64,000 nt of DNA, taken from Triglochin maritima (taxonomy: Eukaryota; Streptophyta; Magnoliopsida; Alismatales; Juncaginaceae). The stretch is from contig OY821771.1 of assembly GCA_963682175.1 (NCBI GenBank), forward strand, positions 27,486,201 to 27,550,200, in the 5' to 3' direction. Positions 1 to 41,875 of the stretch are shown in pieces. Both the position numbers and the translations under genes were made by a program. Each line of letters starts with the position of its first letter. Within the stretch, counting starts at the first letter, position 1. The notes beneath the pieces were generated by a model. That model did no database searches and was not told the DNA's origin. It was given only the letters and a program-made list of their open reading frames with translations.

Positions 1-1301
1 TCAAGTCTAGCAATCACCTCATTCTTTTCATTCATGATTAATTCAATTTGACATTTGAGATCATTTATAGTTTTTCTAGCATTTTTGTTCTTTTCACAAA
101 TGATCTCATATTGTTTAACTAAATCATGAAATGCATTTTGTAGCTCATCATGTGTATATGATTCACCATTAGCATTAGAGTTAGAGCTAGCACTAGAATA
201 TGATTTACTTGACCATGAATTACTTCTAGTGGAATAAGATTTAGAGGAGTTAGAAGCTACCTCACTTTGTTCATCTTCAATGGCCATGAAGCATGAATGT
301 GCAACCTCTCTTCTACTTTGTAAGGAAGAGGATGATGATGATGGAGATGAAGAGTCATCCCAAGTGGCTTTGTGAGCTTCCTCCTTCCTTTCTTTCCTCT
401 TACTCTTCTCCTTTTCTCTTCTCCTCTCTCTTCTCTCATTTTTCTTCTCCCTCTCTTTTCTCTCATTTTCGCTCTCCTCCCTCTCTTTTTCTTTTTCTCT
501 TTTCTCACTTCTTCTACCTCTTCTTTCATTCTTTTCTCCCTTATCCCTCTTGAGATATTTGAAGAAGTCTTGGGCAAGGACCTCAATGTCCTCTTCTTCC
601 ACCCTCCTTGGCTCATCAAAATTTGCATGCAATGCCACCATGGAGTTTTTCTTTGAAGCTTCCTTCTCTCTTCGATGACTCAATTGGAGCTCATAGGCCA
701 TGAGATTTCCAATGAGTTCCTCCATCTTCAATTTTGAAAGATCATGTGCCTCTTCAATTGCGACGATTTTATCTTCCCAATCGATGCTAAGTGACCGGAT
801 GAACTTCCTTGTCATCTCTCCTTCATTGATTTTTCTTCCAAGAACCAAAAGAGAGTTAGTGATATCGGTGAAGCGAGTGTTCATTTCGCTTATGTTTTCA
901 CCGATTTGCATAGAAAAAATCTCATATTTATGCATGAGGAGACTAATGCGGGTTTCCTTAGTTTTACTATCCCCCTCATGATGCATTTGTAGTCTATGCC
1001 ATATTTCATGTGCACTAACACACCCTCTAATCCTATTATATTCTCCCTCATTTAGCCCACAATATAGAATGTTCATGATTTTTGAGTTCATCTCAATTTC
1101 TTTCATTTTGGGCCTAGTGAGTGAATCTAATTCATCTTCATTTGGTGGTGTGTATGGATTTTGGAGAAACATCCAATACTTAAGGTCATTAGAAATTAGG
1201 AAAATCTTCATCCTATTCTTCCAATAATCATAATTTGACCCATTAAGCAAAGGAGGTCTAGTGGTGCATAATCCCTCTACATGATTAGATGTGCTAGCCA
1301 T
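1..1301 (-). CDS. copia-type gag polyprotein, N-terminal part, runs off the left edge
   Basis: Read on the minus strand from the ATG at 1299-1301, the frame stays open for 1.3 kb to the window edge. The N-terminus (residues 9-30, with RPPLLNGSNYDYWKNRMKIF) is the DUF4219-like start of copia gag, followed by a UBN2-type gag domain (IWHRLQMHHEG, then SLLMHKYEIF, then LSIDWEDKIVAIEEAHDLSK) to about residue 215. A long Lys/Glu/Arg-rich stretch (plus-strand 370-545) occupies the place where this family normally carries a CCHC zinc knuckle; the ATWDDSS and CFMAIED segments that usually flank the knuckle are present. The product would be the nucleocapsid protein that packages element RNA. It lies directly downstream of its own LTR and primer site. 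No stop or frameshift is seen, so this gag may be intact. Confidence 0.85.
   Translation of the reverse strand, partial: MASTSNHVEGLCTTRPPLLNGSNYDYWKNRMKIFLISNDLKYWMFLQNPYTPPNEDELDSLTRPKMKEIEMNSKIMNILYCGLNEGEYNRIRGCVSAHEIWHRLQMHHEGDSKTKETRISLLMHKYEIFSMQIGENISEMNTRFTDITNSLLVLGRKINEGEMTRKFIRSLSIDWEDKIVAIEEAHDLSKLKMEELIGNLMAYELQLSHRREKEASKKNSMVALHANFDEPRRVEEEDIEVLAQDFFKYLKRDKGEKNERRGRRSEKREKEKEREESENERKEREKKNERRERRREKEKSKRKERKEEAHKATWDDSSSPSSSSSSLQSRREVAHSCFMAIEDEQSEVASNSSKSYSTRSNSWSSKSYSSASSNSNANGESYTHDELQNAFHDLVKQYEIICEKNKNARKTINDLKCQIELIMNEKNEVIARL
366..545 (-). repeat. low-complexity charged tract in the copia gag
   Basis: The plus strand is an almost pure C/T run; on the minus strand it encodes alternating Glu/Lys/Arg with a few Ser and Asn. 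It stays in the gag frame, so it is tolerated coding sequence. It replaces the expected zinc-knuckle region and could bind RNA through charge alone, which is inference. Confidence 0.75.
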
Positions 1302-1339: not shown

Positions 1340-1351
1340 GCTCTGATACCA
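1340..1351 (-). promoter_or_regulatory. primer binding site (initiator tRNA-Met type) of the left copia element
   Basis: The minus strand reads TGGTATCAGAGC, complementary to the 3' end of plant initiator tRNA-Met, the usual primer of plant copia reverse transcription. It lies 2 bp from the LTR end and about 40 bp upstream of the gag ATG. Confidence 0.9.
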
Positions 1352-1353
1352 AA

Positions 1354-2922
1354 TGTAGGATCGTGTGGGTTATGGGTCCACTAATCACTCCTAAGCTAAT
1401 CACCTTTTTAATCTAATTAACTACTTGGTTGATTGATCAAAGAATTGCAGCGGAAATTAAAAACAAATCAAACACAAGTAGGAAAGCAATGCAAACCAAA
1501 CAAGAAGACACCGGATTTACAGAGGTTCGGCCGCGCCTACGTCCTCTCTTGCAAGCCCCTCTCGAATCCCCGTTCGAGCTCCTCTTGCGTCTTCACTATG
1601 CCTCCCCGTTCCGGGCCGGGAGCAACGCCTTTTACAAGTCTTCAAGCTCGCGAACAACCCTCGCCGAGCTTGGCACCACCTCTCACAAACCGAGAGAATC
1701 ACTTCGGGCTTTCACCGAAATCCTTGCTTCTTTGTCTTGGGCTTTCACCAAGACCCTTGCTCACTTTACAACAATGGTGACTGAGTGGAACTCACTCTCT
1801 AATTGAGCACAACAATTGCTAGATGAATGTATGATGAATGATGTGTAGATGTGAGGCTTAAGATCACTAATTTGGAGCTTTGAGGTTGTGGAAAATCTCA
1901 CTATAAGTTTGACACTTTGGAGTTGTGAAATCTTGTAGAAAACTAAGTGTGAACCTCTATTTATAAGCTCCTAAAGATTTCTAGCCGTTTGGACAAGATT
2001 TGATTGGGGTTTGTGCAAAGGACACAAAACAGAAAAATCGGATTCAGAAATCTGTCCAGAAACGGTCGACCGAAAGGTGTATCGGTCGACCGAACCCTTG
2101 AGTCTGTTGATGGATCGGTTGACCGAACAAAGGTACTGGTCGACCGAATCACTTAAGTTCTATAGGTCAACGGTCGACTGAGCAGGTACCGGTCGACCGA
2201 ACTACTGGGTTCGGTAGAGAGAAATCTTGATCGGTTGGACAAACTTGTGTCGACCGATAGCAGGGGGTTTTTCACGAATTGAACGGTCGACCGAAAATGG
2301 TATTTTGTTCGACCGGTTCAAAAGTATTTGGGGGTGTATATAGGAAAAATGTGTATACGACCGTTGTATAATACGACAAATAAAACGGTCGTATTTTTAC
2401 CAGAAATGGCAAACGAAACGGTCGACCGAAGGTCTACCGGTCGACCGAACAGGTCTGGGTAATCGGTTAATAGAAGGTGGAATCGGTCGAACGAATTGGT
2501 CTGGTATAACAAATATTGTGTATAACCGGTCGACCGAAAAGGTGAACGGTCGACCGAACTCAGGTAGACTGGCGACCAATGTTTTAGGTGTTTGGGTGAT
2601 CTAATGGAGTCCAAATTATATGATATTTTGTGTGTGACTCCTACAAGGAACCTAGTGTGTGAATGCATGCATATTAGCTTAAGTTATGCTCAATTTACAT
2701 AAGTTCCTAATACTCAAAGAAATATAAAATTACATGTCTTCAATCCTAGCTTGATTACATGTCTTGACTTGATTTTTCTTCTTTCTTGAGTCTTGATCAC
2801 CTGTAGATGTTAGCACAATACAACATGTATACCATTATACTACATGTGCTAATCTACATGTCCTAATTAAGATTAGGTTGAAATACATCATCAAAATACG
2901 GATTAAGGCCAAAAAGCCAACA
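1354..2922 (-). repeat. 5' LTR of the minus-strand copia element
   Basis: The LTR runs from TGTAGGATCG (plus strand 1354) to GCCAACA (2922), so on the minus strand it starts TGTTGG and ends CCTACA. The primer site abuts one side and broken gypsy integrase sequence the other. A second member at 13959-15414 shares both ends and much of the interior. Between 2060 and 2570 it holds a dense array of CGGTCGACCG palindromes, mostly in pairs about 20 bp apart. The 1500-1750 stretch is GC-rich and could be read as short ORFs, but I see no gene. The copia 3' LTR and the target duplication lie outside the window. Confidence 0.85.
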
Positions 2923-4042: not shown

Positions 4043-5850
4043 TGTTATGTCCCTAACCCTTATTTAAGGTGCTAATGGTGTTTAGTGAGGAGGTTTGCAT
4101 GGGGAAATGGTGTTGCACAGTGTTGTGCGTAGGGAAGGAGGAGGATAAGATGAGTAGGGTGATGGTGGGGGTGTTTTGTTGGTTTTTGTGTTGGTTGAGA
4201 AGGATTTCCTCCATTCTTGCACCCAACTCATCTCTCTCACTCTCCTTTCCCTTCCATTTCCGGCGAACCAGAGGTGGTGGAGGCGACTCTGACGAGTGCC
4301 GTCGAGCACGACGTTGCGGAGGCGAGGACGTGAGGTGCATTGCAGCGGGGGTTGCTGTCGGACGTCGACGTTGAGTGGAACTCCGACGTGCTCCATCTTG
4401 CACTTGAGGTATGCCGGTTCTTTAGTTGTTTTTGTTGCTCACCCACGTTGGGGTGGAGTTGTGATCGGTCGCGGGAGGTTGGAGACCTCACCGGCGGCGA
4501 AAAACGACGTAAAATACTCGGCATGCGCGGGGTTGCTGTCAGCCAACGCTCGACCGGTGCCTTCGGGCGGTCGACCAGTCGGAGGAATTCGTTTTTGTTT
4601 TCGGTCGACCGTTCCTTGCCTTTGGTCCGACCAGAACGCAAGTGTACTTGAGAATAATGCATGTGGTTTGACCGATTATTTATATTGTTCGACCGTTATA
4701 TGACTTAGACTATTAGGATGACCCTGGTAGTTTTCGGTCGACCAGAATCCCTAAGTCGGTCGACCGAATAGACTTGTATGATTTGGACCAGACTACGGAT
4801 TTGACCCCGTATTCGGTCGACCGACTTTAGTTTTCGGTCGACCGAATTGCCTACCCAGGGACCGTTGTGTGAAAGAGTGTGGACACTTGGGTCGCGCCAC
4901 CTCTATTGATGGACAATGGTGTGACGTGATGTTGCTTGACTCTCTGTAAGCAGCATACCTGAGGGATCACGGATCCCAATGCATGTTGAGGCATGGCTCA
5001 TAGAGCATGATGTCCCTGCAGACTACGGTCTGGACCCGTCCGATGTTGTGTTGTACGTATGTTGTACCGCCGAGGTTTTTGTCGGCAATGATGTTCCGAC
5101 TTGTGGTTGTGTCGTCCGATGTTGTGCCCGACGTATGTTGTACCGTCGTTGTTGTGCCGGCGATGTTGTTCCGGCGATGATTCCTTGATTGGGCACCTAT
5201 CGGGGAATGTTTGGACCGACCGGGCTACGACTCCGTTGGGGTGGTGTAGACCACGTGGTTACCTTGCGCGGAAGTGCAGACACTCCTCACCGATCCCTTT
5301 GGCTCGAGTAGTCGCGTGTAGGGGTGCATCGCGTACTGTCCGCAAGACCGTATATGCCTACGGTAGGTTTCCGAGGGAGACACGTTGTTGTTGCTGGACT
5401 GATGTCCTTGTTGACCCTTTGAGGGTATTTGTTGTTGCCGAGGGACTGAGGTCCTGTTTTACCCTTGGAGGGGATTTGTTTCATTGCATATGTTGATATG
5501 GCATGCCACTAGTACGATAGGTTCATTTACCGTATTGTTGCATTCATATAGGCGAGCTTGACATACGGGTTTTCCTAATGGGAAACTCAGGCATTGTTGT
5601 TGATTCATGTTTCAGGACCGCAATAGGTTATGTCGGGTGGTGACAGCGGACACACGCATGTTGGGGCTTCATGATTACTTGTATCTGTCTTTCGTTGTAT
5701 TAATGTTATCATGTATTTTGACAAACTCTGTTGTATTGTGGTGCACCGACTGATTATATTTATATGAGTAACATTCCCGTTTGATTACCTTTGTCTTTCA
5801 GATCTCGTTTGTTTAAATTTTCAAATTTTCTGCTGTTTCGGAATGTTATA
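4043..5850 (+). repeat. 3' LTR of the truncated gypsy chromovirus
   Basis: It begins TGTTATGTCCC directly after a purine tract (AAAGAGGGTGGAT, 4030-4042) and ends near TGTTATA at 5850, where the intact relative ends TGTTACA. The last 60 bases (TTTAAATTTTCAAATTTTC then TGCTGTTT) align by eye with the ends of the LTRs at 24251-26537 and 31137-33462. Between 4547 and 4850 are six paired CGGTCGACCG-type palindromes with 21-22 bp offsets. The stretch 4980-5490 is GC-rich with short repeats of GATGTTGT and GTTGTGCCG type, and has no gene. Confidence 0.8.
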
Positions 5851-13958: not shown

Positions 13959-15414
13959 CGTAGGATCGTAAGGGTCTTTAATTCTAATCACTTTTAAGCT
14001 AATTACCTACTTATTTAATCGATCAAATATGTGCAGCAGAATTTAAAACTAAACAAGCAAGTAAATAAATGGAAAATGCAAACCACAAGCAGTCGGGGGA
14101 TTTTACAGAGGTTCGACACCCCACCCGGGTCCTAGTCCTCTTTTGCAAGCTCCGCTCGGATCACCGAGCTCCGCTCACGACTTCACTAACCACTCCCCAT
14201 TCCGGGCCGGGAGAGAACGCCTTTACAACACAAGCACCGCGAACACCCTCGCTTGCTTGACCTTCTTCCTCTCACAATCCGAGAGGGAACAATTCAGGCT
14301 TTCACCGTAATCCTCGCTTATTGAACAACAAATGAGTGGGACAACACTCTCTAAATGTTGAGCACACTTTGAGTATGATTTGGCTATGATCAAATGTGTG
14401 GAATTGAGGCTTAGAGTGTAGGATTGGGGAAATTGGAGCTTGAGAGTTTCTCTCTAGTGTATGTGACAAATGGAAGTGTGAGAGATGTGTTAAAATGTGT
14501 TTTACAACTCTATTTATAAGCACTAGAGAGAATATAGCCGTTGGGGTTAATTTGGGTAAGAGTTGTGAAAGATACACAAAATAGAAATCTGCAGGACCCA
14601 AAACTGAGTAAGTTCGGTCGACCGGATCGGGCTGATTGGTCGACCGTTTGGCAATTTTTAACTCAGTTCGGTCGACCGCCAGAGGCTATGTTCTAGGTAC
14701 ACTTAAGTTATCGGTCGAACACCGAGATAGGTTCGGTCGACTGAAAACTAACAGGCTCTTCTGGGTTGACAAACAAGATTAAATTCGGTCGACCGAAAGA
14801 AGGTCCACGGTCGACCGAAAACCAATAGAAAGTTTTGGTTTGTCGAGATGTCTTAATTCGGTCGACCGAACAAGGCCCTCGGTCGACCGATACACTAAAT
14901 GTATTTGGGGTATTTAGGAATAATACGAATACGATCGTTTGGTATATACGACAAAACAAACGGTCGGAAATTTGTTGTTACTCGGTCGACCGAACTTGGG
15001 CAGTAAAACACTAACTGGATATATGATCACTTGGTCGACCGAATGTGGGCAGACAGTTCATGTTAATGTTTGGTGTTTTCCGGTCTAAGTTTGAGTGATC
15101 TATTGAAGTCCAAATTATATGAAATTTTGTGTGTGACTTCTATAGGGAACCTAGTGTGTATTGAGTAGTTTTTAGTTCAAGTATGCTCAATTATACAAAA
15201 TTCCTAAGACTCACAGAAAGAAAATTACATGTCTTCAATAGAGCTTGATTACATGTCTTGACTTGAATTCTTTCTTTCTTGAGTCTTGATCACCTGTAGA
15301 AGTTAGCACATAGCAATATATATGCAGTGCAATATGTGTGCTACTCTTCATGATTACAATTAAGATTAGGTTGATTAAATCATCAAAACATAGATTAATG
15401 CCCAAAAGGCAACA
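13959..15414 (-). repeat. solo copia LTR inserted in the CACTA element
   Basis: It begins CGTAGGATCG (TG mutated to CG) and ends AAGGCAACA, the same ends as the copia LTR at 1354-2922. A perfect 5-bp duplication AACTA flanks it (13954-13958 and 15415-15419), and transposase sequence lies on both sides. No internal region remains, so the element was lost by LTR-LTR recombination. Between 14615 and 15045 it carries CGGTCGACCG palindromes, four pairs of them with 21-22 bp offsets. Confidence 0.92.
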
Positions 15415-17365: not shown

Positions 17366-17817
17366 CTCCATGTTAGAACCGACTCTCTCTCCTCTCTCAT
17401 CCCTAACCCATCAGCCCCACCTTCCTCTCCTTCTTCTCCATCCGACCCAAACCCTCAACCCACGTAATTCAACCTAACCCGACTTCCTCCTAACGTCGGC
17501 GACGACTAGGACAACGGTGAAGAGCACCGAGTCGCGACGGCAATTTCCGGCGAGGTACGCCACCCATCCATTTCGTTTCGAGTCCATAGGGGTTGACGCG
17601 AGTTGAGGGTGTTTTGGGAGGGGGAGAGGCGGCACTAGCGACCCGGGTCAGTCGACCGACGAAGTAGGACGCAGGGGGCACGCGGGCTGGTACCGCGTAC
17701 CTCGTGTCGGGTCGCGTGTGGGATGGCGAGGGGGAGGCTAACGTTGGGACACGTGTTGTCCGACAAGGGGGAGTCAATTCCGCCCTGTAGACCCTATAAT
17801 TTAATTATATTTCATTA

Positions 17818-18285
17818 AATAATGAATAAGTGGGTTAATTGCTGGAAAACACTGTAATTTAATGATATTTGATCGAATAATGAATAATTGGGTTAATTGT
17901 TGGAAAACCCTGTAATTTAATGATATTTGATTAAATAATGAATAATTAGGTTAATTGCTAGAAAACTATGTGATTTAATGATAATTGATTAAATAATGAA
18001 TAATTAGGTTAATTGCTAGAAAACTATGTGATTTAATGATAATTGATTAAATAATGAATAATTAGATTAATTGTTGGAAAAACCCTGTAATTTAATGATA
18101 TTTGATTAAATAATGAATAATTGGATTAGTTGTTGGAAAAACCCTGTAATTTAATGATATTTGATTAAATACTGAATAATTGAGTTAATTGTTGGAAAAC
18201 CCTGTAATTTAATGATATTTGATTAAATAATGAATAATTAGGTTAATTGCTAGAAAAGTATGTGATTTAATGACTTAATTTTAGG
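17818..18285. repeat. 58-bp tandem repeat, about 8 copies, inside the solo LTR
   Basis: The unit contains AATAATGAATAATTGGGTTA, TGGAAAACCCTGTAATTTAA and TGATATTTGATTA. The GTTAATT landmark recurs at 17834, 17892, 17950, 18008, 18066, 18125, 18184 and 18242, so the period is 58-59 bp. Copies differ by a few bases. Confidence 0.9.
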
Positions 18286-20362: not shown

Positions 20363-22023
20363 TGTAACATCCTCAAAAGCGGAAGAAATTTAATTTTTTA
20401 ATGAAACACAACACGGGGATATTACCGAAGAAAACAGACAACTGGTGCACCAACATATATACAATATATATATAAGAGTTTCAAAAGTGTGATTACAACA
20501 AAAGATAAGGAAAATATACATGTAATCACTCAGACCTCAAAATAAGGAAAGCAGGATCTGACCCCAAAACACTACTCCTCGGTCACCACCTCCTATTACT
20601 GCTCACGACCTGAAATAGAACCCGCATATTCCTGAGTTTCCCATAGGGAAACCCCGTATGCCAAACTTCTATCACAATAAATGAACTAGACAACTAATAG
20701 CATGTATGATATGAAATACAATAAACAAACAACGTCTCACTGGGCCCCCGGGAACTCTCTCCCTACCACAGTAGACACCAAACAGTGACGGGTCTCGCGG
20801 GTCCTCTAGCCCAACCCTCACACGTGCCCCAGGCACCACAGCCCGAAACATCCTCGGCTACAACACACACTGGATCACTCTCAGGTCGGTAATGTTTGTA
20901 TCGTTGCCCCTTTAGGGTCGGAGACCCAATGCCATCTTGAGCTATTCCAGAAGACCACTCTCAGGCCGGCAATGTCTGTACCGTTGCCCCAAAAGGGCCG
21001 GAGACCCGTTGCCATCTTGAGCTGGCTCCACAACACTAAAACCACACAAAACCGCACCAAACGGTCAAACAAAACCACCAAACCGGTCGACCGAATCCTC
21101 TCCATAGGACTGACCCAACTGAAAAACTTGTCAACCGGTCGAACAACAAAGGGGTCCCGTTCGACTGAATTCGACCAGTAAAAACTCCATGCCACAATAA
21201 AAAGCACAAACGGTCGAACCACACACGATCACCGGTCGACCGAAAATGGGCAGTAGAAAATCCAAATCAAACATAATACTCCGACCGACCGAACCATCAC
21301 GCGGTCGGACAAACTTAAGTTATTTAAAACGTCGATCGAACGAGTCAACTAGGCGGTTGACCGTTTGGATGGTCAACGCCCCAACCGACCTACAACAGTG
21401 CTTTCGGTCGATCGGCAAATGGGTCCCGTTCGACCGAAAACACCCAGAGTCTCCGTCTCTCGCTCAAAATGCACTACCGGTCGACTAACTCCAAGGTATC
21501 GTTCGACCGATACGAGAGATTTCACCCAATTTACACTACGACCGGTCGACCGTTTACAGTGCAAAAACTGCTGCACAGGTTCGACGAGCCATCCGGCCTA
21601 CTGTCGACCACTCCAGCACCCACGAAAGCATAAGTGAGCATCAAAGTAAAGCTTGACATACATTTAAGGCTTGAAGAAGCCTTTGAAGCCCGAGAACGTT
21701 TCCACGCGAACTCTTCTTCTCCGGCGAACTCCTCGAACGCGAACACCTCTACTCCGGCTCTCAACTGAGCTCCTCCTGGCTTCGCCGACCTCACTTCCAC
21801 GATTTCTCCGGCTGGGAGAGAAAGGATCGAGAGAGAGAGAGAGAGCGTGAGAGTTGAGAGACGAGTGAGAGAGAGAATGAGAAGGAGAGAGAAAACCAAC
21901 CTATATATACAATTTCTCCATTCAATCTCAGCCATCCATCTCACCAACTCTTAAGCCTCCCTAAACAGCCCCTAATCAAGTCCAAAACATGATTAGTGCA
22001 AAGCAAGGATTTAGGATATTACA
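20363..22023 (-). repeat. solo chromovirus LTR (minus orientation)
   Basis: It starts TGTAACATCCTC and ends TTAGGATATTACA, like the LTRs of the element at 33715-41875. The flanks are GAAAA (20358-20362) and GAAGA (22024-22028), a duplication with one mismatch. It contains the short CTCAGGCCGGCAATGTC(T/C)GT repeat at about 20941-21020, CGGTCGACCG-type palindromes at 21080-21555, and a GA-rich leader at 21820-21890. No internal domain is left. Confidence 0.85.
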
Positions 22024-24245: not shown

Positions 24246-24870
24246 ACATGTGTAGGATTCTGATCCAAATCCTAATCCTAATTGTGTTTTGGTGTTGATT
24301 AGGTGGTGATTAGGGGGAGATGGTGATGGATGGCTTGGATTGAAGATGGTTGGATGGAGGGTTGAGATGGAGAGGAGATGAGATGAGTGGTGGAGATGGT
24401 TTGGATTGGATTGGATGGTGAGGATTGGTTTGGGTGGAGATATTTATGTGGTGATTTTCTCTCTCCCCCTTACCTTACTCTCACTCACGTCTCTCTCTCC
24501 CTCTCCTAGGCTGATCTCCGGCAAGAGGATTCGAGCTCCGGCGTGGTGGAAGGAGTGTGCTCCGGCGAAGGGAGGGTCGGCACGAGGGGTGGTTGGAGGT
24601 GAGTTCGTTGTTGTACCTACTCATTCTTGTGCATTTGGTTTTCCCTCTCCCTCGACCTAACGTGTTTCTGGGATCGTGGTTGGTGGTTGGAGATTGCCGG
24701 AGGTGGTGTTGTGGCTGTGGTTCGTCGAGGTTCGTCGTGGTTCTTCTAAGGTCTCTTCAGACCTTTAGGTATGTCAAGCTCGCTCACTTAATTACCGTGA
24801 GTATTTGGAAGTCGACGGTAGGCCGTTCGGCTCGTCGCGAGTAAATGTGCAGCAGATTTCACTGTCTGAT

Positions 24871-25551
24871 CGGTCGACCGGTTGGTGCAAACGGTCGACC
24901 GTTCGTGAAGAGAATTCGGGCTCTGCCTCAAATCGGTCGAACGATGCCTGTGGGGCGGTCGACCGATTGTGCTTAGGAGGCAAGTCTGGAGAGATTCGGT
25001 CGACCGGGTCCCCTTTGCCGGTCGACCGTGTGCACTGTCTTAAGTCGGTTGGGGGCGTAGACTATGTAAACGGTCGACCGCCCTTTGATCTCGTCCGACC
25101 GTGACTTAAGTGGACCTTGTGGTCGGTTCGACCGAATGAGGGTTCGGTCGACCGGACTGGTGCGCTGAGCGTGGGGAACGCTCTGGTGGAATTCGGTCGA
25201 CCGAGGTGAGCTCGGCGTCCGACCGGATTCGTGGTGCGTGTGAGGGATTATTCCCTGGACTGATTCGGTCGACCGAGATGTGCTCGGCGTTCGACCGAAT
25301 TCGTTGTGGTGTTGTGGGATTTGTTCCCTGGTGACTTTCGGTCGACCGGGACCCCCTTTGTCGGTCGACCGATTGGTCGTTTTGTTCGTTGGACCGGGAG
25401 ATGACCATCTAAACGGTCGACCGTCCCTTGATTTGGGTTCGACCGAACGAATGTGGTGTTGGGAATCGGTCGACCGATGGAGTGCCGGTCGAAGTGGATT
25501 GCCCTGTATTTGCTTGATTCGGTCGACCGGGACTTTTGGTTCGGTCGACCG
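24871..25551 (+). repeat. array of about eleven twin CGGTCGACCG palindrome modules
   Basis: Paired starts, with exact or one- to two-base-variant second members: 24871/24892, 24934/24956, 24997/25019, 25071/25092, 25124/25145, 25194/25216, 25266/25288, 25339/25362, 25414/25436, 25467/25486 and 25520/25542. Offsets are 21-23 bp except one of 19, and modules recur every 53-75 bp. The spacers are not conserved, apart from a recurring CCCCTTTG. The 3' LTR carries the same array at about 31830-32515. Confidence 0.92.
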
Positions 25552-25664
25552 TTTGTGTCCTGTTTTGCACTATGGAGGTGCTGTTGTCGTGGTTGCCCGT
25601 GTGGGGCGAGTCGTGGTGCCGATGTTCTTCCGGCAAGTGTGCGAGGTGCACGAGGGTTGCAGTG

Positions 25665-26060
25665 GTTGGCTGAAAATAGACCTGGAGCCCCGTAACCGTG
25701 TGAGAGCTGCGGTTGGTTGAAAATAGACCTGGAGCCCAGCTAGTCTGTACGGAGTTGGTTGAAATTAGACCTGGAGCTCCGTAGTGCGTTCAGGTTGGTT
25801 GAAAATAGACCTGGAGCCTGAGCAGGGACCGCGTGTAGGGGTTGGTTGAAAATAGACCTGGAGCCCTTATACGTTTGGGTTGGTTGAAAATAGACCTGGA
25901 GCCCTTGGTCGTGTCGTGGTAGCTGTGGTTGGTTGAGATTAGACCTGGAGCCCAGCTTGGCGACGTGTGTGAGTCGCGGCGGTTGGTTGAGATAAGACCT
26001 GGAGCCCCGTGACTGTGTGGGTGCGGCGGTTGGTTGAGATTAGACCTGGAGCCCCGTACC
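25665..26060 (+). repeat. nine copies of a 27-bp direct repeat in the LTR
   Basis: The unit is GGTTGGTTGAAAATAGACCT followed by GGAGCCC. Copies start at about 25660, 25710, 25752, 25795, 25839, 25877, 25928, 25981 and 26029, separated by unrelated spacers of roughly 10-28 bp. The later copies change AAAATAG to AGATTAG. The same nine-copy block is at 32620-33015 in the 3' LTR. Confidence 0.92.
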
Positions 26061-26370
26061 GGTGGTGTGTCCTGTGATGGAGTTGAGAGCCCTGGTGCTG
26101 GGCGTGTTGTGATGCTTTTCTTGTTGAGTAGAATTGCATGCTAGGATGCTTTTATTTCATACATTTAGAGTTTGGCATACGGGGTTTCCTTCTGGAAACT
26201 CAGGCATTGTTGCATGTTTACTTTCAGGCCGTGATCGGCATTAGGGGGGGTGGTGACCGAGGAGAGGAGCACCGCTACCGGATCCAGCTTTCTCTCAGTT
26301 GAGGTCGTGTGATTATTGTTTCCTTGTATATGCTTTTGATGTAATCACAACTTTTGTATACTCTGATGTT

Positions 26371-26440
<70 letters not shown>
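26371..26440 (+). repeat. (CA)14(TA)21 compound microsatellite
   Basis: A CA run followed directly by a TA run. The matching site in the 3' LTR (33331-33365) is only about half as long and has one CG interruption, so the tract changed length after insertion. Confidence 0.95.
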
Positions 26441-26442
<2 letters not shown>

Positions 26443-26540
26443 ATATGTCGGTGCACCTGTGTTCTTTTATTGCGTAATATCCTCTATTGATTGAGTGTTT
26501 AAAATTTTAAATTTTCCGCTATTTTGAGGATGTTACAACT

Positions 26541-26552
26541 TGGTATCAAAGC
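26541..26552 (+). promoter_or_regulatory. primer binding site (initiator tRNA-Met type)
   Basis: TGGTATCAAAGC lies 3 bp after the LTR end. It differs by one base from the usual TGGTATCAGAGC. The same variant occurs in the related element on the minus strand (40046-40057), so it is a family feature. Confidence 0.85.
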
Positions 26553-26655
26553 GGTCGGTTCCAGTGTTTTATCCAAAGAAACCACCCTTAGAGTTTTAGC
26601 GTCTGCATTAGTTCATGCATTCATGATTTTGATGTGTGCTGTTCTTTGTGTGTAG

Positions 26656-28098
26656 ATGCCTCCGAGACGCGTGAGACCTCCCCCACGGGACCGTAGCACC
26701 AACGATGAGACTGGGGGCACGGACTGGGCAGAGGAGCTGCGGATGCTCTATGACACAGTGGGGCGACTGGGAGCGATGTTGGATCGCCAGTCAGGCAGAG
26801 GAGAGCCAGCAGCGGCAGGAGCGATGCTCGATCGCTTTATGAGACAGCACCCGCCTACCTTTGACGGTAGAGGAGAGTCTGAGGCTGTGGAGGATTGGGT
26901 CCTGAAGATTCAGGAGATCCTGCAGGCGATTGAGTGCCCGCCTGAGAGGCAGACATGCTTGGCAGCTTATGTGTTGGGCGGAGACGCGTCCAACTGGTGG
27001 AGGACCACATTTGCAGTGGTATTTGAGGACAGGACTGATGTCAGCTGGGAGGAATTCCTACGGGAGTTCAATGAGCAGTATTTCGCCGAGCATGTCAGAG
27101 ACGGGAGGAGAGAGGAGTTTATGGCTCTCGAGCAGGGAGATGCGACCCTGGCTGAGTATACCCGGAGGTTCAACGCACTGGAGCGTTACTGTCCGGAGAT
27201 CTGTGTGACGCCGCTGCAGAGGGCGAGGAAGTTCATACGGGGGCTGAGGAAGCACCTCCGTACTCAGGTGACCTACAGTATGCCGCAGACGCTGGCAGAT
27301 GCGGTGAGATTCGCGACGCTCATTGATTAGGATTACCAACAGAATTATGCTGAGGCCAGGAGAGCACCGGGGAAGGTCAGTGGACGTCCGGGTGCTCCAC
27401 TAGCAGGGAACCCGGGCAAGAGGCCCCGGATCGGAGGAGGTGGATCACGCCAGCCTGAGGCGTGCAGAGGTTGTGGCAGAGTTCACTCTGGTGAGTGTTG
27501 GGGTCGCGCAGTGTGCCACGGGTGTGGCAAGCCAGGCCATTTTGTGAGAGATTGTCCGAGTGGGCCAGATGGGTCCAGCAGGCAGTCGGGACAGCCGGCA
27601 GGTGGCAGAGGCGGAGGTCGCCGACCTTTTGCGCCGCAGCGACAGCAGGGTCAGAGGACTGGTCGAGTCTTTACCATCCAGGCGGATGAGGCGAGAGACG
27701 CCAGCACGGTGGTGGAAGGTACGTTTTTTGTTGCTGGGTTGAGTGCGAGAGTGCTGTTTGACTGTGGGGCCACACACTCGTTTATCTCGGAGCGATTTGC
27801 GAGCGTGTTGGGCCGTACCCCTGCGATGTTGACTGCCACGTTGGAAGTCAGCACACCCTTGGGTCTGGTGGGCATTGTGGTGAGCTTCCTCCCCAGCGCC
27901 ACGATTGTTTCGGGAGATCAGGAGTTTCCGGCTGACCTGATCTTGTTGTCGATGGAGGACTTCGACGTCATACTGGGGATGGATTGGCTGTCCCAGTACG
28001 ATGTGCGAGTTTTGTGCCGGGAGAAGAAGATTCTGATCCCGAGGAAGGGTCTACCTGATGTGTTGATCAGGGGGCGAAAGATAGAGGAGGCAGAGTGA
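26656..28098 (+). pseudogene. chromovirus gag and protease, one in-frame TAG
   Basis: The ATG at 26656 opens MPPRRVRPPPRDRSTNDETG. The retrotrans-gag domain covers about 26840-27330 (YVLGGDASNWWR, FNEQYF, RFNALERYCPEI). A TAG at 27328-27330 replaces the CAG seen at the matching site of the minus-strand relative; the same frame continues after it. Zinc knuckle: CHGCGKPGHFVRDC at 27514-27555, preceded by a CRGCGRVHSGEC half-knuckle. The aspartic protease has VLFDCGATHSFIS (27751-27789) and DVILGMDWL (27964-27990); note DCG in place of the usual DS/TG. The frame ends at a TGA at 28096-28098 because of a one-base loss near 28072-28080. The products would be the capsid and protease of the element. 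Confidence 0.93.
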
Positions 28099-31000
28099 TT
28101 GTATCGGCAGTGAGGGCACAGAAGTTGTTGCAGCAGGGTTGCAGAGCTTTTGTGGCCACTTTGGTAGTTCCCGATCCAGAGGCGGAGAGATTGGAGGACA
28201 TCGAGATCGTTCGGGAGTTCCCAGATGTATTTGCAGATGATGTCACTAGGTTGCCGCCTCACAGAGAGATTGAGTTTGGGATCGACTTGGTAGCTGGGAC
28301 TACGCCGCAGACGAAGGCGCCGTATCGGATGGCACCTGCGGAGCTGGCAGAGCTGAAGAGGCAGTTGTAGGATCTGATGGATACGGGGTTTATCCGCCCC
28401 AGTGTCTCGCCTTGGGGAGCGCCGGTACTCTTCGTGAAGAAGAAGGATGGATCACTGCGGATGTGTATATATTACAGGATGTTGAACAAGGTTACCGTGA
28501 GGAATCGGTATCCCTTGCCCAGGATCGAGGACCTGTTTGACCAGTTGCAGTCAGCGCAGGTGTTCTCGAAGATTGATCTGCGATCCAGTTATCATCAGCT
28601 GAGGATCAGAGAGGCAGATGTGCAGAAGACAGCTTTCAGGACGAGGTACGGGCATTACGAGTTTCTGGTGATGCCGTTTGGGTTGACGAACGCGCCTGCA
28701 GCGTTTATGGATTTGATGAACAGGACGTTCAGTTAGTACCTCGACCGGTTCGTGATCGTCTTCGTGGACGATATTTTGATTTACTCGCCATATGTGGAGC
28801 AGCATCGAGAACACTTGAGAGTTGTACTTGGCATTTTGCGGGATCATCAGTTGTATGCCAAGCTATCGAAGTGCGAGTTCTGGCTGAGCAGTGTCGCCTT
28901 CTTGGGACACATCGTGTCAGGTGACGGGATTTCCGTCGATCCAGCGAAGGTCGAGGCCGTTACACAGTGGAGAGCCCCGACGAGTGTAGCAGAGATCAGG
29001 AGCTTTGTGGGTCTGGCAGGTTATTATCGCCGTTTCATCCAGGATTTCTCGAGGTTGGCTTCGTCGTTGACGACTCTGACGCGGAAGGGCGTTGAGTTCG
29101 TGTGGTCCCAGCAGTGCGAGGACAGTTTTCAGGAACTGAAGAGTCGGCTGACGACTGCTCCAGTTCTGACACTTCCCAGTGGCAGTGGTGGTTTTGTGAT
29201 TTACAGTGACGCGTCAGGCGTTGGACTGGGATGCGTACTCATGCAGCACGGGCAGGTGGTTGCATATGCTTCGAGGCAGTTGAAGGTGCACGAGAGGAAC
29301 TACCCCACTCATGATTTGGAGCTGGCGGCAGTGGTGCACGCTTTGAAGACCTGGAGGCATTACTTGTATGGCGAGCGATTCGAGGTATTCACCGATCATC
29401 AGAGCCTGAAGTATCTGTTTTCGCAGAAGGAGCTGAATATGAGGCAGCGCAGATGGCTCGAGCTGATTAAGGATTATGATTTCACCATCTCGTACCATCC
29501 GGGGAAGGCGAATTCGGTTGCTGATACTTTGAGCAGGAAGGTGGACGTTACCGCAGCAGGTCTTTGTATCGAGGAGTGGAAGCTGCTTGAGGCGTTGACT
29601 GAGTGGAGACCGTTCACCGATGAGTCGCGAGGTGCAGTGATCGCCGGGCTGAGAGTGGAGCCTCAGTTGGTCTCGAGTATTGTTCAGGCTCAGAGTACTG
29701 ATGATGAGTTAGCCGGGTTGCTGCAGTTAGCTGCCAGAGATGGATCAGACTTCAGTGTTGGGGTTGATGGGGGACTGAGGTTCAGGGGCCGTGTCTGGGT
29801 GCCAAAGGGAGGAGATCTGAGGCAGGACATTCTGGAGGAGGCGCATAGATCCCGTTATTCGATCCACCCGGGCAGCACGAAGATGTTTAGAGATCTTCAG
29901 AGGAATTTCTGGTGGAAGAGGATGAAGACGGAGATCGCAGAGTTTGTTGGCAGATGTCTGATTTGTCAGCAGGTGAAGATTGAGCACCAGAGACCTGCAG
30001 GGCCGATGCAGAGGATCGAGCTTCCAGAGTGGAAGTGGGAGCACGTGACGATGGATTTTGTCACCGGGCTGCCGAAGACGAGGGGATTCCATGACGCGAT
30101 TTGGGTTATAGTCGATCGACTGACCAAGTCGGCGCACTTCTTAGCTATTCGGACAACTTTACCTCTGGAGGGTCTAGCTAAGTTGTATATTGAGGAGATT
30201 GTCAGGCTTCATGGAGTGCCCGTGAGTATTATTTCAGACCGAGATCCGAGGTTCACTTCCAGATTCTGGGGGAGTTTGCAGCAGGCCTTGGGGACTCGGT
30301 TGAAGTTCAATACGGCATTCCATCCACAGACAGACGGTCAGTCTGAGAGGACCATCCAGACGCTAGAGGATATGTTGCGAGCGTGTACTCTGGATTGGGC
30401 AGGTCATTGGGATGAGCATCTGCCATTGATCGAGTTCGCCTACAACAACAGCTACCATTCGAGCATTGGGATGACACCGTACGAGGCCCTGTACGGGAGA
30501 CCGTGTAGATCACCGGTATGCTGGAGTGATGTAGGCGAGAGACAGCTAGTTGGTCCTGAGATTGTGCAGATGTATGCCGAGAAGGTTGATGTGATCAGAC
30601 AGAGACTAGCGACTGCGCAGAGCAGGCAGAAGAGCTACGCAGATAGGCGTAGGCGTGAGCTGAGATTTGAGGCTGGTGACCATGTCTTCCTGAGGATTTC
30701 ACCATCTCGTGGGGTGATGAGGTTCGGGAAGAAGGGGAAGCTCAGTCCGAGGTATGTCGGGCCGTTTGAGATTCTCGATCGGGTTGGAGAGGTCGCCTAC
30801 AGGGTTGCGTTGCCGCCGCAGTTTTCGGGTCTTCACAACGTCTTCCACGTGTCGATGTTGAGGAAGTACGTAGCGGATCCTTCTCATGTGATTCAGTTGG
30901 AGGTTCCAGAGATCCGTCAGGATTTGTCTCTTGAGGAGAGACCGGTTGAGATTGTGGATCGGATGGAGCATCAGTTGAGGAGGAGGACCATTCCGATGGT

Positions 31001-31103
31001 GAAGGTCAGGTGGCAGCACCACAGTGAGCGAGAGGCCACTTGGGAGATCGAGGAGGAGGTCCGGAAGGAGTTCCCGGAGTTGTTTGGTGAGCTTCAGTTT
31101 TAA
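28078..31103 (+). pseudogene. chromovirus RT-RNase H-integrase-chromodomain, two in-frame TAGs
   Basis: This frame joins after the one-base loss near 28075. [22 protein letters not shown] (28408-28467), where the next residues are IYY and not the usual IDY, then [17 protein letters not shown] and [10 protein letters not shown] (28759-28788) with the DD pair. TAGs at 28368-28370 (after RQL) and 28734-28736 (after NRTFS) both stand where CAG is expected. RNase [12 protein letters not shown] (29198-29230) and [10 protein letters not shown]. Integrase: an HHCC finger about 29840-29980 (ending CLICQQ), DDE core [16 protein letters not shown] and TDGQSERT (30052-30350). The chromodomain near 31000-31090 has [10 protein letters not shown]. 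The 783-residue stretch 28752-31103 is entirely open and ends in TAA. It would copy and integrate the element; the chromodomain would direct insertion to heterochromatin. Confidence 0.95.
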
Positions 31104-31118
31104 TTTCGAGGACGAAAT

Positions 31119-31136
31119 TCTTTTAGGAGGGTGGAT
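31119..31136 (+). promoter_or_regulatory. polypurine tract of the complete chromovirus
   Basis: TTTTAGGAGGGTGGAT ends directly at the 3' LTR. A related tract precedes the 3' LTRs at 4043 and, inverted, at 35493. Confidence 0.8.
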
Positions 31137-33462
31137 TGTAGGATTCTGATCCAAATCCTAATCCTAATTGTGTTTTGGTGTTGATTAGGTGGTGATTAGG
31201 GGGAGATGGTGATGGATGTCTTGGATTGAAGATGGTTGGATGGAGGGTTGAGATGGAGAGGAGATGAGATGAGTGGTGGAGATGGTTTGGATTGGATTGG
31301 ATGGTGAGGATTGGTTTGGGTGGAGATATTTATGTGGTGATTTTCTCTCTCCCCCTTACCTTACTCTCACTCACGTCTCTCTCTCCCTCTCCTAGGCTGA
31401 TCTCCGGCAAGAGGATTCGAGCTCCGGCGTGGTGGAAGGAGTGTGCTCCGGCGAAGGGAGGGTCGGCACGAGGGGTGGTTGGAGGTGAGTTCGTTGTTGT
31501 ACCTACTCATTCTTGTGCATTTGGTTTTCCCTCTCCCTCGACCTAACGTGTTTCTGGGATCGTGGTTGGTGGTTGGAGATTGCCGGAGGTGGTGTTGTGG
31601 CTGTGGTTCGTCGAGGAGACGATTGATCGTCGTTTGGACACGAGGTTCGTCGGCGGATCGTGATTTGGGGAGACGTGCTCGTGGAGGCGGCGTCGTGGTT
31701 CTTCTAAGGTCTCTTCAGACCTTTAGGTATGTCAAGCTCGCTCACTTAATTACCGTGAGTATTTGGAAGTCGATGGTAGACCGTTCGGCTCGTCGCGAGT
31801 AAATGTGCAGCAGATTTCACTGTCTGATCGGTCGACCGGTTGGTGCAAACGGTCGACCGTTCGTGAAGAGAATTCGGGCTCTGCCTCAAATCGGTCGAAC
31901 GATGCCTGTGGGGCGGTCGACCGATTGTGCTTAGGAGGCAAGTCTGGAGAGATTCGGTCGACCGGGTCCCCTTTGCCGGTCGACCGTGTGCACTGTCTTA
32001 AGTCGGTTGGGGGGCGTAGACTATGTAAACGGTCGACCGCCCTTTGATCTCGTCCGACCGTGACTTAAGTGGACCTTGTGGTCGGTTCGACCGAATGAGG
32101 GTTCAGTCGACCGGACTGGTGCGCTGAGCGTGGGGAACGCTCTGGTGGAATTCGGTCGACCGAGGTGAGCTCGGCGTCCGACCGGATTCGTGGTGCGTGT
32201 GAGGGATTATTCCCTGGACTGATTCGGTCGACCGAGATGTGCTCGGCGTTCGACCGAATTCGTTGTGGTGTTGTGGGATTTGTTCCCTGGTGACTTTCGG
32301 TCGACCGGGACCCCCTTTGTCGGTCGACCGATTGGTCGTTTTGTTCGTTGGACCGGGAGTTGACCATCTAAACGGTCGACCGTCCCTTGATTTGGGTTCG
32401 ACCGAACGAATGTGGTGTTGGGAATCGGTCGACCGATGGAGTGTCGGTCGAAGTGGATTGCCCTGTATTTGCTTGATTCGGTCGACCGGGACTTTTGGTT
32501 CGGTCGACCGTTTGTGTCCTGTTTTGCACTATGGAGGTGCTGTGGTCGTGGTTGCCCGTGTGGGGCGAGTCGTGGTGCCGATGTTCTTCCGGCAAGTGTG
32601 CGAGGTGCACGAGGGTTGCAGTGGTTGGTTGAAAATAGACCTGGAGCCCCGTAACCGTGTGAGAGCTGCGGTTGGTTGAAAATAGACCTGGAGCCCAGCT
32701 AGTCTGTACGGAGTTGGTTGAAATTAGACCTGGAGCTCCGTAGTGCGTTCAGGTTGGTTGAAAATAGACCTGGAGCCTGAGCAGGGACCGCGTGTAGGGG
32801 TTGGTTGAAAATAGACCTGGAGCCCTTATACGTTTGGGTTGGTTGAAAATAGACCTGGAGCCCTTGGTCGTGTCGTGGTAGCTGTGGTTGGTTGAGATTA
32901 GACCTGGAGCCCAGCTTGGCGACGTGTGTGAGTCGCGGCGGTTGGTTGAGATAAGACCTGGAGCCCCGTGACTGTGTGGGTGCGGCGGTTGGTTGAGATT
33001 AGACCTGGAGCCCCGTACCGGTGGTGTGTCCTGTGATGGAGTTGAGAGCCCTGGTGCTGGGCGTGTTGTGATGCTTTTCTTGTTGAGTAGAATTGCATGC
33101 TAGGATGCTTTTATTTCATACATTTAGAGTTTGGCATACGGGGTTTCCTTCTGGAAACTCAGGCATTGTTGCATGTTTACTTTCAGGCCGTGATCGGCAT
33201 TAGGGGGGGTGGTGACCGAGGAGAGGAGCACCGCTACCGGATCCAGCTTTCTCTCAGTTGAGGTCGTGTGATTACTGTTTCCTTGTATATGCTTTTGATG
33301 TAATCACAACTTTTGTATACTCTGATGTTCACACGCACACACACACACATATATATATATATATGATATATGTCGGTGCACCTGTGTTCTTTTATTGCGT
33401 AATATCGTCTATTGATTGAGTGTTTAAAATTTTAAATTTTCCGCTGTTTTGAGGATGTTACA
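31137..33462 (+). repeat. 3' LTR of the complete chromovirus
   Basis: 2326 bp, the same ends and internal order as the 5' LTR. It keeps two segments missing from the 5' copy: 29 bp and 43 bp within about 31615-31700, each bounded by short direct repeats (GAGG and GTCG). The microsatellite at 33331-33365 is shorter. The palindrome array (31830-32515) and nine-copy repeat (32620-33015) are retained. Confidence 0.93.
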
Positions 33463-33714: not shown

Positions 33715-35493
33715 TGTAACATCCTCATCAGCGGAAGAAATTTAATTTTTTTAACATAATCACAAACATGAGGATATTAAGGAAGAAACAGACAACTGGT
33801 GCACCAACATTTATACAATATATATATCTGAGAGTTTCAAGAGTATGATTACAACAAAAGATAAAGGGAAATCTACATGTAATCACTAAGACCTCAAAAA
33901 CAGGAAAAACAAGATCTAGCTCCAGACACGCTCCTCCTAGCGCCGCTCACGGCCTGAAATAAAACATGAATATGCTTAAGTTTCCCATAAGGAAATCCCG
34001 TATGCCAAACTCCTATCACAATAAATGAACTAAACAACTATAAACATGTATGATATGAAATGCAGTAAACAACAATCATCGTCGCACTGGACCTCGGGGA
34101 AACCTCTCCCATCCACAGTAAACACAAAATAGTGACGGGTCTCAAGGGTCCTCTAGCCCAACCCTCACACGTGCCCCATGCAATACAGCCGGAAGCATCC
34201 TTGGCTACAACACAACTCTGGATCACTATCAGGCCGGCAATGTTCGTACCGTTACCCTCCAAGCCTGGAGACCCGTTGCCCTCAAAGCTGATCCGACAAA
34301 CCACTCTCAGGCCAACAATGTCCGTACCATTGCCCTCAAAGGCCGGGGACCCGTTACCTTCAAGCTGGTTCCACCACACCACAACACCAACGAACCACTC
34401 TCAGGCAGACAATGTCCGTACCGTTGCCCCAAAAAAGTCGGGGACCCGTTGCCCTCAAGCTGGTTCCACAACACCAGAACAACACCAAACAACACTGAAA
34501 CGGTCGAACAAAAACATCATACCGGCCGACCGAATCCCCATCCAGAGGACTGACCCAACCGAAAAACTCATCAATCGGTCGCACGGCAAGGGGACCCGTT
34601 CGACCGAAAACCACCAGTAAAAACTCATTGTCGCACAAAAAACACAAACGGTCGAACAATACAAGATCGATGGTCGACCTAAAAAGGGCAATAAAAATCC
34701 AATTTATAACAAATTACACCGATCGACCGAAACTACAAAAAGGTCGAACGAACTTTAAGTTAACTTAAGTCATCGGTCGAAGGAGATCTCAGGATGGTCG
34801 ACCGTTTTATGATCTACACCCCCAACAGACTTAAAACAGTGCTTCGGTCGAACGGCAAAGGGGACCCATTCGACCGAAAACCACGAGTACCTCCATCTTC
34901 TTGCTCAACATGTACCACTGGTCAACCACCCAAGGGTATCGTTCGACCGGTGCGATAGATAAACGCCAAAATTTCACTACAACCGGTCGACCGAACCGCT
35001 AAAACGATCAACCGATTCAGTGCTGAACTTTGCTGCACAAGTCCGACGAGCCTTTCGGCCCACCGTCGACTACTCAAACACTCACTCTAGCTTAGGTGAG
35101 CATAAAAGTAAAGCTTGAAATACCTTGAAGGCTTGAAGAAGCCTTTGAAGATCCAACAACGAGTTTTTCCCCTCAAGAACCCAAACTCCGGCGACGATCG
35201 AACAGAGCAACGATCAACCCAACTCCGGCGAACGCTTGAGCTTCACCTCGCCTCACCGCTTTCACCCTCTCCGGAGCTTCTAATTTGTTGAGGATCAGGG
35301 TAGAGAGAGAGAGAGAAAATGAGCGGGATAGAGAGAGACGAGAGAGAAAAACCCACCAACCTTATACTCTTCTCTTCTCCATCTCCACCATCCACCTCAT
35401 ATCCACCAACTCATCCCAGCCATCCAAACCAAAACCTCCAATTTGCCACCTAAAAACCAATTAACCCAAAAAATAAGGGTTTAGGATATTACA
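33715..35493 (-). repeat. 3' LTR of the degenerate chromovirus
   Basis: 1779 bp, TGTAACATCC to ATATTACA on the plus strand. It contains three CTCAGGCCGGCAATGT-type repeats (34228, 34310 and 34400 regions), paired CGGTCGACCG-type sites at 34500-35010 (for example 34501/34523) and a GA tract at 35305-35350. The tract beside it inside the element is AAAATTCTTTTAAGGATGGT on the minus strand, a decayed polypurine tract. Confidence 0.9.
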
Positions 35494-35559
35494 ATCTACC
35501 ATCCTTAAAAGAATTTTGTCCCCAAAATTAGAACCAAAACTCATCAAATAGTTTCGGTA

Positions 35560-40060: not shown

Positions 40061-41875
40061 TGTAACATCCTCATCAGCAGAAGAAATTTAATTTTTTTTA
40101 ACATAATCACAAACATGAGGATATTACGGAAGAAACAGACAACTGGTGCACCAACATATATACAATATATATATTTGAGAGTTTCAAAAGTATGATTACA
40201 ACAAAAGATACATGGAAATGTACATGTAATCACTAAGACCTCAAAAATAGGAAAAACAGGATCTGGCTCCAGACACGCTCCTCCTCGGTCACCACCTCCT
40301 AGCGTCGCTCACGACCTGAAATAAAACATGAATATGCTTGAGTTTCCCATAAGGAAATCCCGTATGCCAAACTCCTATCACAATAAATGAACTAGACAAC
40401 TATAAGCATGTATGATATGAAATGCAGTAAACAACAATCATCGTCGCACTGGACCTCGGGGAAAACTCTCCTAGCCACAGCAGACACAAAACAATGACGG
40501 GTCTCAAGGGTCCTCTAGCCCAACCCTTCCACGTGCCCCAGGCACCACAACCGGAAGCATCCTCGGCTACAACACAACTCTGGATCACTATTAGGCCGGC
40601 AATGTTCGTACCGTTGCCCTCCATGCCTGGAGACCCGTTGCCCTCAAAGCTTATCCGACGAATCACTCTCAGGCCGATAATGTCCATACTGTTTCCCTCC
40701 AAGGCCGGGGACCCATTGCCTTCAAGCTGGTTCCACCACACCACAACACCAACGAACCATTCTAAGGCTGACAATGTCCGTACCGTTGTCCCAAAAAGGC
40801 CGGGGACCCGTTGCCCTCAAGCTGGTTCCACAACACCAAAACAACACCAAACATCACCGAAACGGTCGAACAAAAACACCATACCGGTCGACCGAATTCC
40901 CATCCAGAGGACTAGCCCAACCGAAAAACCTGCCAACCGGTCGAACGGCAAGGGGACTCGTTCGATCAAAAACCACCAGTAAAAACCCCTTGTCGCACAA
41001 AAAACACAAACGGTCGAACAATACAAGATCGACGGTCGACCGAAAAAGGGCAATAAAAATCCAATTTATAGTAAATTACACTGATCGATCGAAACTATAA
41101 AAAGGTCGAACGAACTTTAAGTTAACTTAAGTCATCGGTCGAACGAGATCTCAGGGCGGTCGACCGTTTTATGGTCTACACCCCCAACATACTTAAAACA
41201 GTGCTTCGGTCGAACGACAAAGGGGACCCGTTCGACCAAAAACCATGAGTAGCTCCATCTTCTCGCTCAACATGTACCACTGGTCAACCACCCAAGGGTA
41301 TCGTTCGACCGGTGCGATAGATAAACGCCAAAATTCACTACAACCGGTCGACAGAACCACTGAAATGGTCGACCGAGTCAGTGCTGAACTTTGCTGCACA
41401 AGTCCGACGAGCCTTTCGGTCTACTGTCGACTACTCAAACACTCACTCTAGCTTCGGTGAGCATAAAAGTAAAGCTTGACATACCTTGAATGCTTGAAGA
41501 AGCCTTTGAAGATCCAACGACGAGTTTTTCGCTTAAGAACCCAAGCTCCGGTGATGATCCAACAGAGCAACGATCAACCCAACTCCGGCGAACGCCCGAG
41601 CTTCACCTCGCCTCACCGCTTTCACCCTCTCCGGAGCTTCCGATTTGCTGAGTACCACGGTAGAGAGAGAGAGAGAGAGAGAAAATGAGCGGGAGAGAGA
41701 GAGACGAGAGTGAGGGAGAGAGAAAACACACAAACCTTATACTCTTCTCTTCTCCATCTCCACCATCCACCATCCACCTCATCTCCACCAACTCATCCCA
41801 GCCATCCAAACCAAAACCTCCAATTAGCCACCTAAAAACCAATTAACCCTAAAAATAAGGATTTAGGATATTACA
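40061..41875 (-). repeat. 5' LTR of the degenerate chromovirus
   Basis: 1815 bp with the same ends and repeats as 33715-35493. Paired CGGTCGACCG-type starts were read at 40863/40884, 40938/40959, 41011/41033, 41136/41157, 41207/41229 and 41345/41366: offsets 21 or 22 in every case. Confidence 0.92.

Follow-up and report, generated by a model that had tools for sequence, protein, structure and literature searches.

A candidate paired-palindrome binding array in Sirevirus-type copia and chromovirus LTRs of Triglochin maritima

Within a 64-kb stretch of Triglochin maritima DNA (the window), both copia and chromovirus LTRs carry arrays of the 10-letter palindrome CGGTCGACCG, which is also used in the variants CGTTCGACCG and CGGTCGAACG. 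The arrays are real, and we lean towards reading them as composite cis-regulatory binding arrays for a dimeric host transcription factor, common to Sireviruses and chromoviruses. In this model, each dyad would be bound by a dimeric host DNA-binding protein. Sites would usually work in twos, spaced by roughly two helix turns and frequently enclosing a CCTT in fixed orientation. The two dimers, possibly joined by another factor on CCTT, would then sit on the same side of the helix and activate the LTR promoter, and the Sirevirus motif would also be in use by the chromovirus lineages of the window. From the location, number and spacing of the sites, the spacer motif and the contrast between within- and between-insertion divergence, we infer protein binding, a dimer, activation and a host origin of the factor.

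Palindrome arrays and the elements that carry them

Eight LTRs, each turned to element orientation, make up 14,719 bp (23%) of the window. They hold all 55 exact copies of CGGTCGACCG, 86 of the 87 sites with up to one mismatch and 124 of the 132 sites with up to two, bearing out the original prediction that palindrome arrays stand in copia and chromovirus LTRs. At up to two mismatches, each LTR carries 8–23 sites against a mean of 0.3–1.9 in first-order Markov versions, in which the highest single run gave 6 sites; the arrays are therefore not due to chance. In the four chromovirus LTRs for which it was measured, the CpG observed/expected ratio is 1.44–1.62 inside the arrays and 0.71–0.97 outside them. 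Six LTRs are non-duplicate (copiaA, copiaB, chr1, chr2, chr3 and chr3 solo; Table 1), and the second LTRs of the chr2 and chr3 insertions were omitted from the variant, spacer and 40-pair totals. Outside these LTRs, short repeats at 10271-10491, 56397-56472 and 57322-57386 carry ACGTCGG/CCGACGT inverted motifs, a different kind of dyad repeat. At 17791-18273, a 58-bp unit is repeated in tandem (8.3 copies with 90% matches).

Table 1 Elements, arrays and associated features in the window
Feature	Position	Strand	Remarks
copiaA, copia 5' LTR	1354-2922	-	Junction and gag
Copia gag (PF14223, E 6e-25)	3..1301	-	Partial, cut off by the window edge at base 1
Copia LTR/PBS junction CA-TTTGG-TATCAGAGC	1340..1355	-	15/16 versus published Sirevirus junction
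copiaA TATA box TATAAATAG	1960..1965	-	98 bp past array, element orientation
copiaA array, Sirevirus-type repeated motif	2063..2556	-	
copiaB, solo copia LTR	13959-15414	-	AACTA flanks both ends
copiaB array	14615..15041	-	
chr1, chromovirus LTR	4043-5850	+	Preceding pol fragment aligns with chr2
chr1 array	4547..4844	+	4 pairs by the present criterion, 5 in the original prediction
chr2, complete chromovirus	24251-33462	+	5-bp target-site duplication ACATG
chr2 5' LTR array	24871..25551	+	11 pairs, offsets 19-23
chr2 possible leader intron, contains array	24769..26227	+	AG/GTATGT ... TTTCAG/G
chr2 3' LTR array	31829..32510	+	Same array as 5' LTR
chr3, chromovirus	33715-41875	-	Internal DNA aligns with chr2
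chr3 5' LTR array	40863..41375	-	8 pairs, offsets 21-22
chr3 3' LTR array	34501..35014	-	8 pairs, offsets 21-22
chr3 solo, solo LTR related to chr3	20363-22023	-	By alignment
chr3 solo array	21062..21552	-	7 pairs, offsets 20-22

The coding domains of chr2 follow Ty3 order (Retrotrans_gag, RVP_2, RVT_1, RNase H, integrase-type), and among them are an integrase zinc-binding and a Tf2-1-type SH3 domain; a match to the chromodomain stays below the threshold (PF00385, E 1.8e-4, 21.8 bits for a cut-off of 25.1). The aligned blocks of its 5' and 3' LTRs are 99.1 and 99.8% identical. Among the best 120 protein relatives of the chr2 pol, from 7,953 candidates scored, the top identity was 68% and the named organisms listed were flowering plants; no relative of the pol protein was found in viral contigs, in which the searched pattern had three matches. 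By alignment, copiaA adjoins chromovirus pol-like sequence at 2922, so it probably inserted within the chr1 element.

In Sireviruses, the LTR/PBS junction reads CA-ATTGG-TATCAGAGC, and clusters of a repeated motif (RM) start 200–400 bp into the LTR, extend over 300–500 bp and precede a mid-LTR TATA box (PMC2829016). The copia junction in the window agrees at 15 of 16 positions; the arrays occupy 367–860 of 1569 bp (copiaA) and 374–800 of 1456 bp (copiaB), as expected of RM clusters; and TATAAATAG follows at 958 and 897, respectively, 97–98 bp past the array. By junction, RM cluster and TATA box the copia element thus appears to fit the Sireviruses, which are further marked by multiple polypurine tracts, an env-like gene, their RT/integrase phylogeny and a polyC-rich integrase signal about 21 bp from the LTR end (PMC2829016). 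Both copia arrays also contain a second inverted motif (about 2356-2394 and 14929-14968), which lies within the best-aligned stretch between the two; it reads ACGACCGTT ... AACGGTCGTA in copiaA and is more degenerate in copiaB.

Spacing and spacers of the palindrome pairs

We measured successive start distances between non-overlapping sites (up to two mismatches) in the six LTRs: 33 of 78 fall at 19–23 bp, none at 10–18 bp and two at 24–30 bp, with palindromes also present singly. Distances of 20–23 bp exceeded random placement in copiaA (4 versus 1.2, p 0.024), copiaB (4 versus 0.8, p 0.005), chr1 (3 versus 0.6, p 0.014), chr2 (10 versus 2.3, p <5e-5), chr3 (5 versus 1.1, p 0.0017) and chr3 solo (5 versus 1.2, p 0.0027), and likewise in the second LTRs of chr2 and chr3. 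The chr2 offsets are 21, 22, 22, 21, 20, 22, 22, 23, 22, 19 and 22 bp, the right site of the tenth pair having 3 mismatches; ten of these agree with the eleven originally listed, but the fifth had been given as 21. For chr1, four of five predicted pairs were recovered, the partner at 4624 lying beyond 3 mismatches, and in the left copia LTR, described as pairing mostly at 19–22 bp, the pairs are scattered, with 6 of 13 distances at 19–23 bp and 2 of 13 at 21–22 bp.

A 72-bp tandem unit found by TRF marks copies within a family as related by unit duplication, and the chr2 array can be aligned in places with that of chr3 (24995-25111 with 34878-34763, 83%). The pairs therefore represent approximately 2–3 independent origins and not some 40 independent pairs, so that independent support for the pairing comes from about two or three lineages (copia, chr1 and chr2/chr3). 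Because pairs within a family are copies, their spacing may be inherited; between chr3 and chr3 solo, 3 of 7 gaps inside pairs and 5 of 6 gaps between pairs differ in length, which is a slight contrast.

The period of all distances was 10.3–10.5 in copiaB, chr2, chr3 and chr3 solo, and peaked elsewhere in copiaA (11.1) and chr1 (11.9). We rejected array-wide phasing at 10.5 bp, which without the 19–23-bp distances was only marginal (37 distances, Rayleigh p ~0.05), with no single LTR below p 0.05. Outer half-sites carried 29 mismatches and inner half-sites 51 in 40 pairs that use each site once, an asymmetry that was also set aside: chr1 runs the opposite way (5 versus 3), and chr3 and chr3 solo are not independent.

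The spacers are less free than originally described. Across 42 spacers (between successive sites of a pair, with at least one site at up to two mismatches; one site may serve two spacers), CCTT in a single polarity occurs in 16, against about 1.2 expected from its rate between pairs, and its reverse, AAGG, in none. The occurrences are spread over copia (6/12), chr1 (1/4), chr2 (4/11) and chr3 with chr3 solo (5/15). Shuffling within spacers gave 0.9 for the 6 in copia and 1.5 for the 10 of 30 in chromoviruses, with neither count reached in 3,000 shuffles; when similar chromovirus spacers were grouped and one was kept per group (16 groups), the count was 3.9 versus 0.5 (p 0.0003). CCTT was picked post hoc, after all families had been viewed, and allowing for the choice of any 4-mer gives p 0.005 for the 30 chromovirus spacers and a borderline 0.049 for chr1 and chr2 together. 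In copia spacers alone, ACCT ranks first and CCTT second, ACCT being present in just 1 of 30 chromovirus spacers. Spacers resembling GGWCCCCTTTGY recur in chr2 and chr3. The claim that only the palindromes and their distance are conserved thus gives way to a spacer motif found in copia and chromoviruses alike.

Divergence of the sites and position relative to the promoter

We took the two LTRs of one insertion as a reference that should diverge neutrally. Between the 5' and 3' LTRs of chr3, 19 of 170 palindrome columns and 26 of 411 spacer columns changed (p 0.06), and between those of chr2, 3 of 240 and 2 of 506 (p 0.33), so that faster palindrome decay within an insertion is not significant alone. 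In all four comparisons across lineages, change was rarer in palindromes than in spacers: chr3 versus chr3 solo (21/167 and 119/387), chr3 versus chr2 (33/183 and 172/384), copiaA versus copiaB (48/148 and 143/299) and chr1 versus chr2 (46/124 and 90/179). Testing within- against between-insertion change gave p=0.0003 with chr3 and 7e-5 when the table was pooled, with site columns chosen by consensus similarity, a rule that favours apparent conservation and was the same in both comparisons. This contrast suggests selection, with active elements keeping their palindromes.

G3T, with its dyad equivalent C8A, is the commonest site variant. Not a CpG transition, it is seen in every one of the six arrays and makes up 25 of 66 changes; of the 21 classifiable changes that separate the two LTRs of an insertion it accounts for none, one more being unclassifiable. 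Several of the 25 are inherited copies, for G3T is absent from the classifiable differences that set chr3 apart from chr3 solo. Only 2 of 22 CpG transitions hit the central CpG (p 0.013); as a single insertion already shows this skew (C5T 1, C1T 6, G2A 2), constraint on that dinucleotide was rejected. A dyad longer than 10 bp was likewise rejected: flanks are not self-complementary overall (90/336 versus 92.9), with chr1 alone at 15/32 versus 9.1 (p 0.03).

The side of the promoter on which the array stands may differ between copia and chromoviruses. If chromovirus transcription starts early, the array possibly lies inside a leader intron. Downstream of the array, an acceptor-like TTTCAG/G is present in all six chromovirus LTRs, and upstream a donor-like GTATG in five, as AG/GTATGT in both chr2 LTRs and the chr3 5' LTR, AG/GTATGC in chr1 and AT/GTATGT in chr3 solo, with no match in the chr3 3' LTR. 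The donor-like site falls within one of six conserved islands among chr1, chr2 and chr3, and the acceptor-like site just past another, an inverted repeat. Early in the LTR of chr3 solo, a pyrimidine tract comes after a TATA-like stretch; chromovirus LTRs have further TA-rich stretches close to the LTR end. In chr2, the putative exon 1 has no ATG, the possible intron 16 and the putative exon 2 up to gag 9. Splicing would have to be partial, because reverse transcription would otherwise lose the array. TTNGATYTG, an intron-enhancement motif, occurs 6 times versus 1.7 in the possible intron of chr2, and the other three possible introns are not above shuffles.

Of the islands conserved among the chromovirus LTRs, the longest is the inverted repeat, GGTTTCC-n-GGAAACTC inside CATACGGGGTTTCC...GGGAAACTCAGGCAT (26168-26207; about 5554-5595 in chr1), some 20 bp upstream of the acceptor-like site. 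Tandem repeats also follow the arrays: about nine copies of a 47–54-bp repeat with GGTTGGTTGAAAATAGACCTGGAGCC in chr2 (25664-26065 and 32623-33024), and different repeats in chr3 (78–95 bp) and chr1 (14 bp).

Alternative readings and known systems

The array could be a minisatellite by-product, a two-palindrome unit spread by slippage and unequal crossover whose spacing is simply unit architecture. The 72-bp tandem, the recurring spacer units and inter-pair gaps kept to 1–2 bp between chr3 and chr3 solo are what such a history would leave; however, the slower divergence of palindromes relative to spacers is seen between lineages and not within an insertion, and the same palindrome and offset stand in copia and chromovirus LTRs with no homology tract, making this account improbable. 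Movement of an array segment between superfamilies, by template switching or gene conversion, would explain palindrome, offset and CCTT together and is compatible with the binding-site reading; we regard it as rather unlikely. Copia and chromoviruses have in common not only the polarity of CCTT but also the octamer ACTTAAGT, found once per LTR in all but chr1, and TTCGACCGAT-R-ACTTAAGT, present in copiaB and chr3. When copia arrays were aligned with chromovirus arrays against versions with sites fixed and spacers shuffled, 3 of 8 alignments reached p≤0.05 with and without the sites, the best masked one (copiaB with chr2) scoring 11.8 against a maximum of 10.8 in 200 shuffles. CCTT, the octamer and these alignments hint that more than the palindrome is common to the two groups. 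In contrast, the other five alignments were not significant (masked p up to 0.85), and 8-mers in common outside the sites (14 versus 12.7 expected, p 0.4) and 9-mers (5 versus 3.1, p 0.23) stayed at chance. Comparison of copia with chromovirus LTRs by blastn gave no match of at least 90 bp at E≤1e-8, and a recent conversion tract was rejected on blastn and the 8-mers.

Recognition could instead act on RNA, with paired palindromes forming LTR-transcript hairpins (10-bp stem, 11–12-nt loop) for packaging, dimerisation or small-RNA silencing. Folded as RNA, the chr2 and copiaB arrays greatly exceed their shuffles in stability (z -8.1 and -9.2, respectively), and small-RNA hot spots are reported at the palindromes of maize Sireviruses (PMC5311732, PMC10760457). 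Such folding is, however, expected of any palindrome array, and the copia array lies upstream of the TATA box, so that the transcript would include it only as the copy in the 3' LTR. Left and right sites do not covary (347/400 paired versus 347.9 permuted, p 0.67), and RNA hairpins therefore look like a by-product; outer flanks are not complementary (97/200 versus 93.8) and inner flanks fall below expectation (66/160 versus 77.2). Missing covariation and flank complementarity speak against the hairpin as a selected feature, and we give this reading little credence. The comparisons favour DNA-level recognition of each dyad, with an RNA structure that may still feed silencing.

The original proposal of paired sites for a dimeric factor is partly supported: it agrees with the dyad, an offset of about two turns, palindromes that diverge slowly between lineages and partner sites that do not covary as RNA, but the array itself had already been described. 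LOB-domain factors (CGG-N-CCG) might be candidates to bind the palindrome. Bolder is the claim that two LTR superfamilies carry one code, dyad–CCTT spacer–dyad over two turns, read by one host dimeric factor, which we consider somewhat less likely than not. If true, the same host signal would co-activate Sirevirus and chromovirus bursts, and unrelated retrotransposons would share or compete for a single host regulator. The Ty3 dyad, with its offset and oriented spacer, would make a sharper bait for the factor (the pair plus CCTT).

The prediction held that no system of this architecture had been described, yet CGGTCGACCG has been published as the repeated motif of a Sirevirus from Vitis, present in 12 copies, 10 of them in the 3' LTR (Bousios et al. 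2010, PMC2829016), and the window copia appears Sirevirus-like. Sirevirus RM boxes are palindromic and CpG-rich with a CGG-CCG core; they were termed Sirevirus-specific and missing from classic retrotransposons, the elements compared being Ty1/copia, and no factor binding them could be named in 2010 (PMC2829016). No such factor was found named in the openly licensed literature searched, nor, in the parts of it consulted (including parts of PMC2829016, PMC5311732, PMC10760457, PMC3414828 and PMC12786077), a description of the array in Ty3 chromovirus LTRs or of the pairing. The chromovirus arrays resemble RM boxes in their CGG-CCG palindrome, at least eight copies (8–23 per LTR at up to two mismatches) and CpG richness, but their carrier is not Ty1/copia, the chr2 domains being in Ty3 order; and the description in the sections of PMC2829016 used here includes neither a pair offset nor a CCTT spacer.

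Maize Sirevirus palindromes (Bousios et al. 2016, Genome Res, as cited in later papers) likewise form arrays in the LTR cis-region with strong predicted RNA structure, but their motif is CACCGGACNNNGTCCGGTG, unlike CGGTCGACCG. Maize Helitrons and Sireviruses have a palindrome in common, and maize Ty3 elements are generally without a peak of such RNA structure (PMC10760457). The heat-responsive element of ONSEN and the W-boxes of EVADE are similar in that host factors at LTR motifs activate the element; they differ in having known factors and unrelated motifs, and the part of PMC12786077 consulted mentions no long array of paired palindromes. The array is thus mostly of a known kind, the Sirevirus RM array, to which the window adds presence in chromovirus LTRs, pairing at about two turns with an oriented CCTT, and a divergence contrast suggesting selection.
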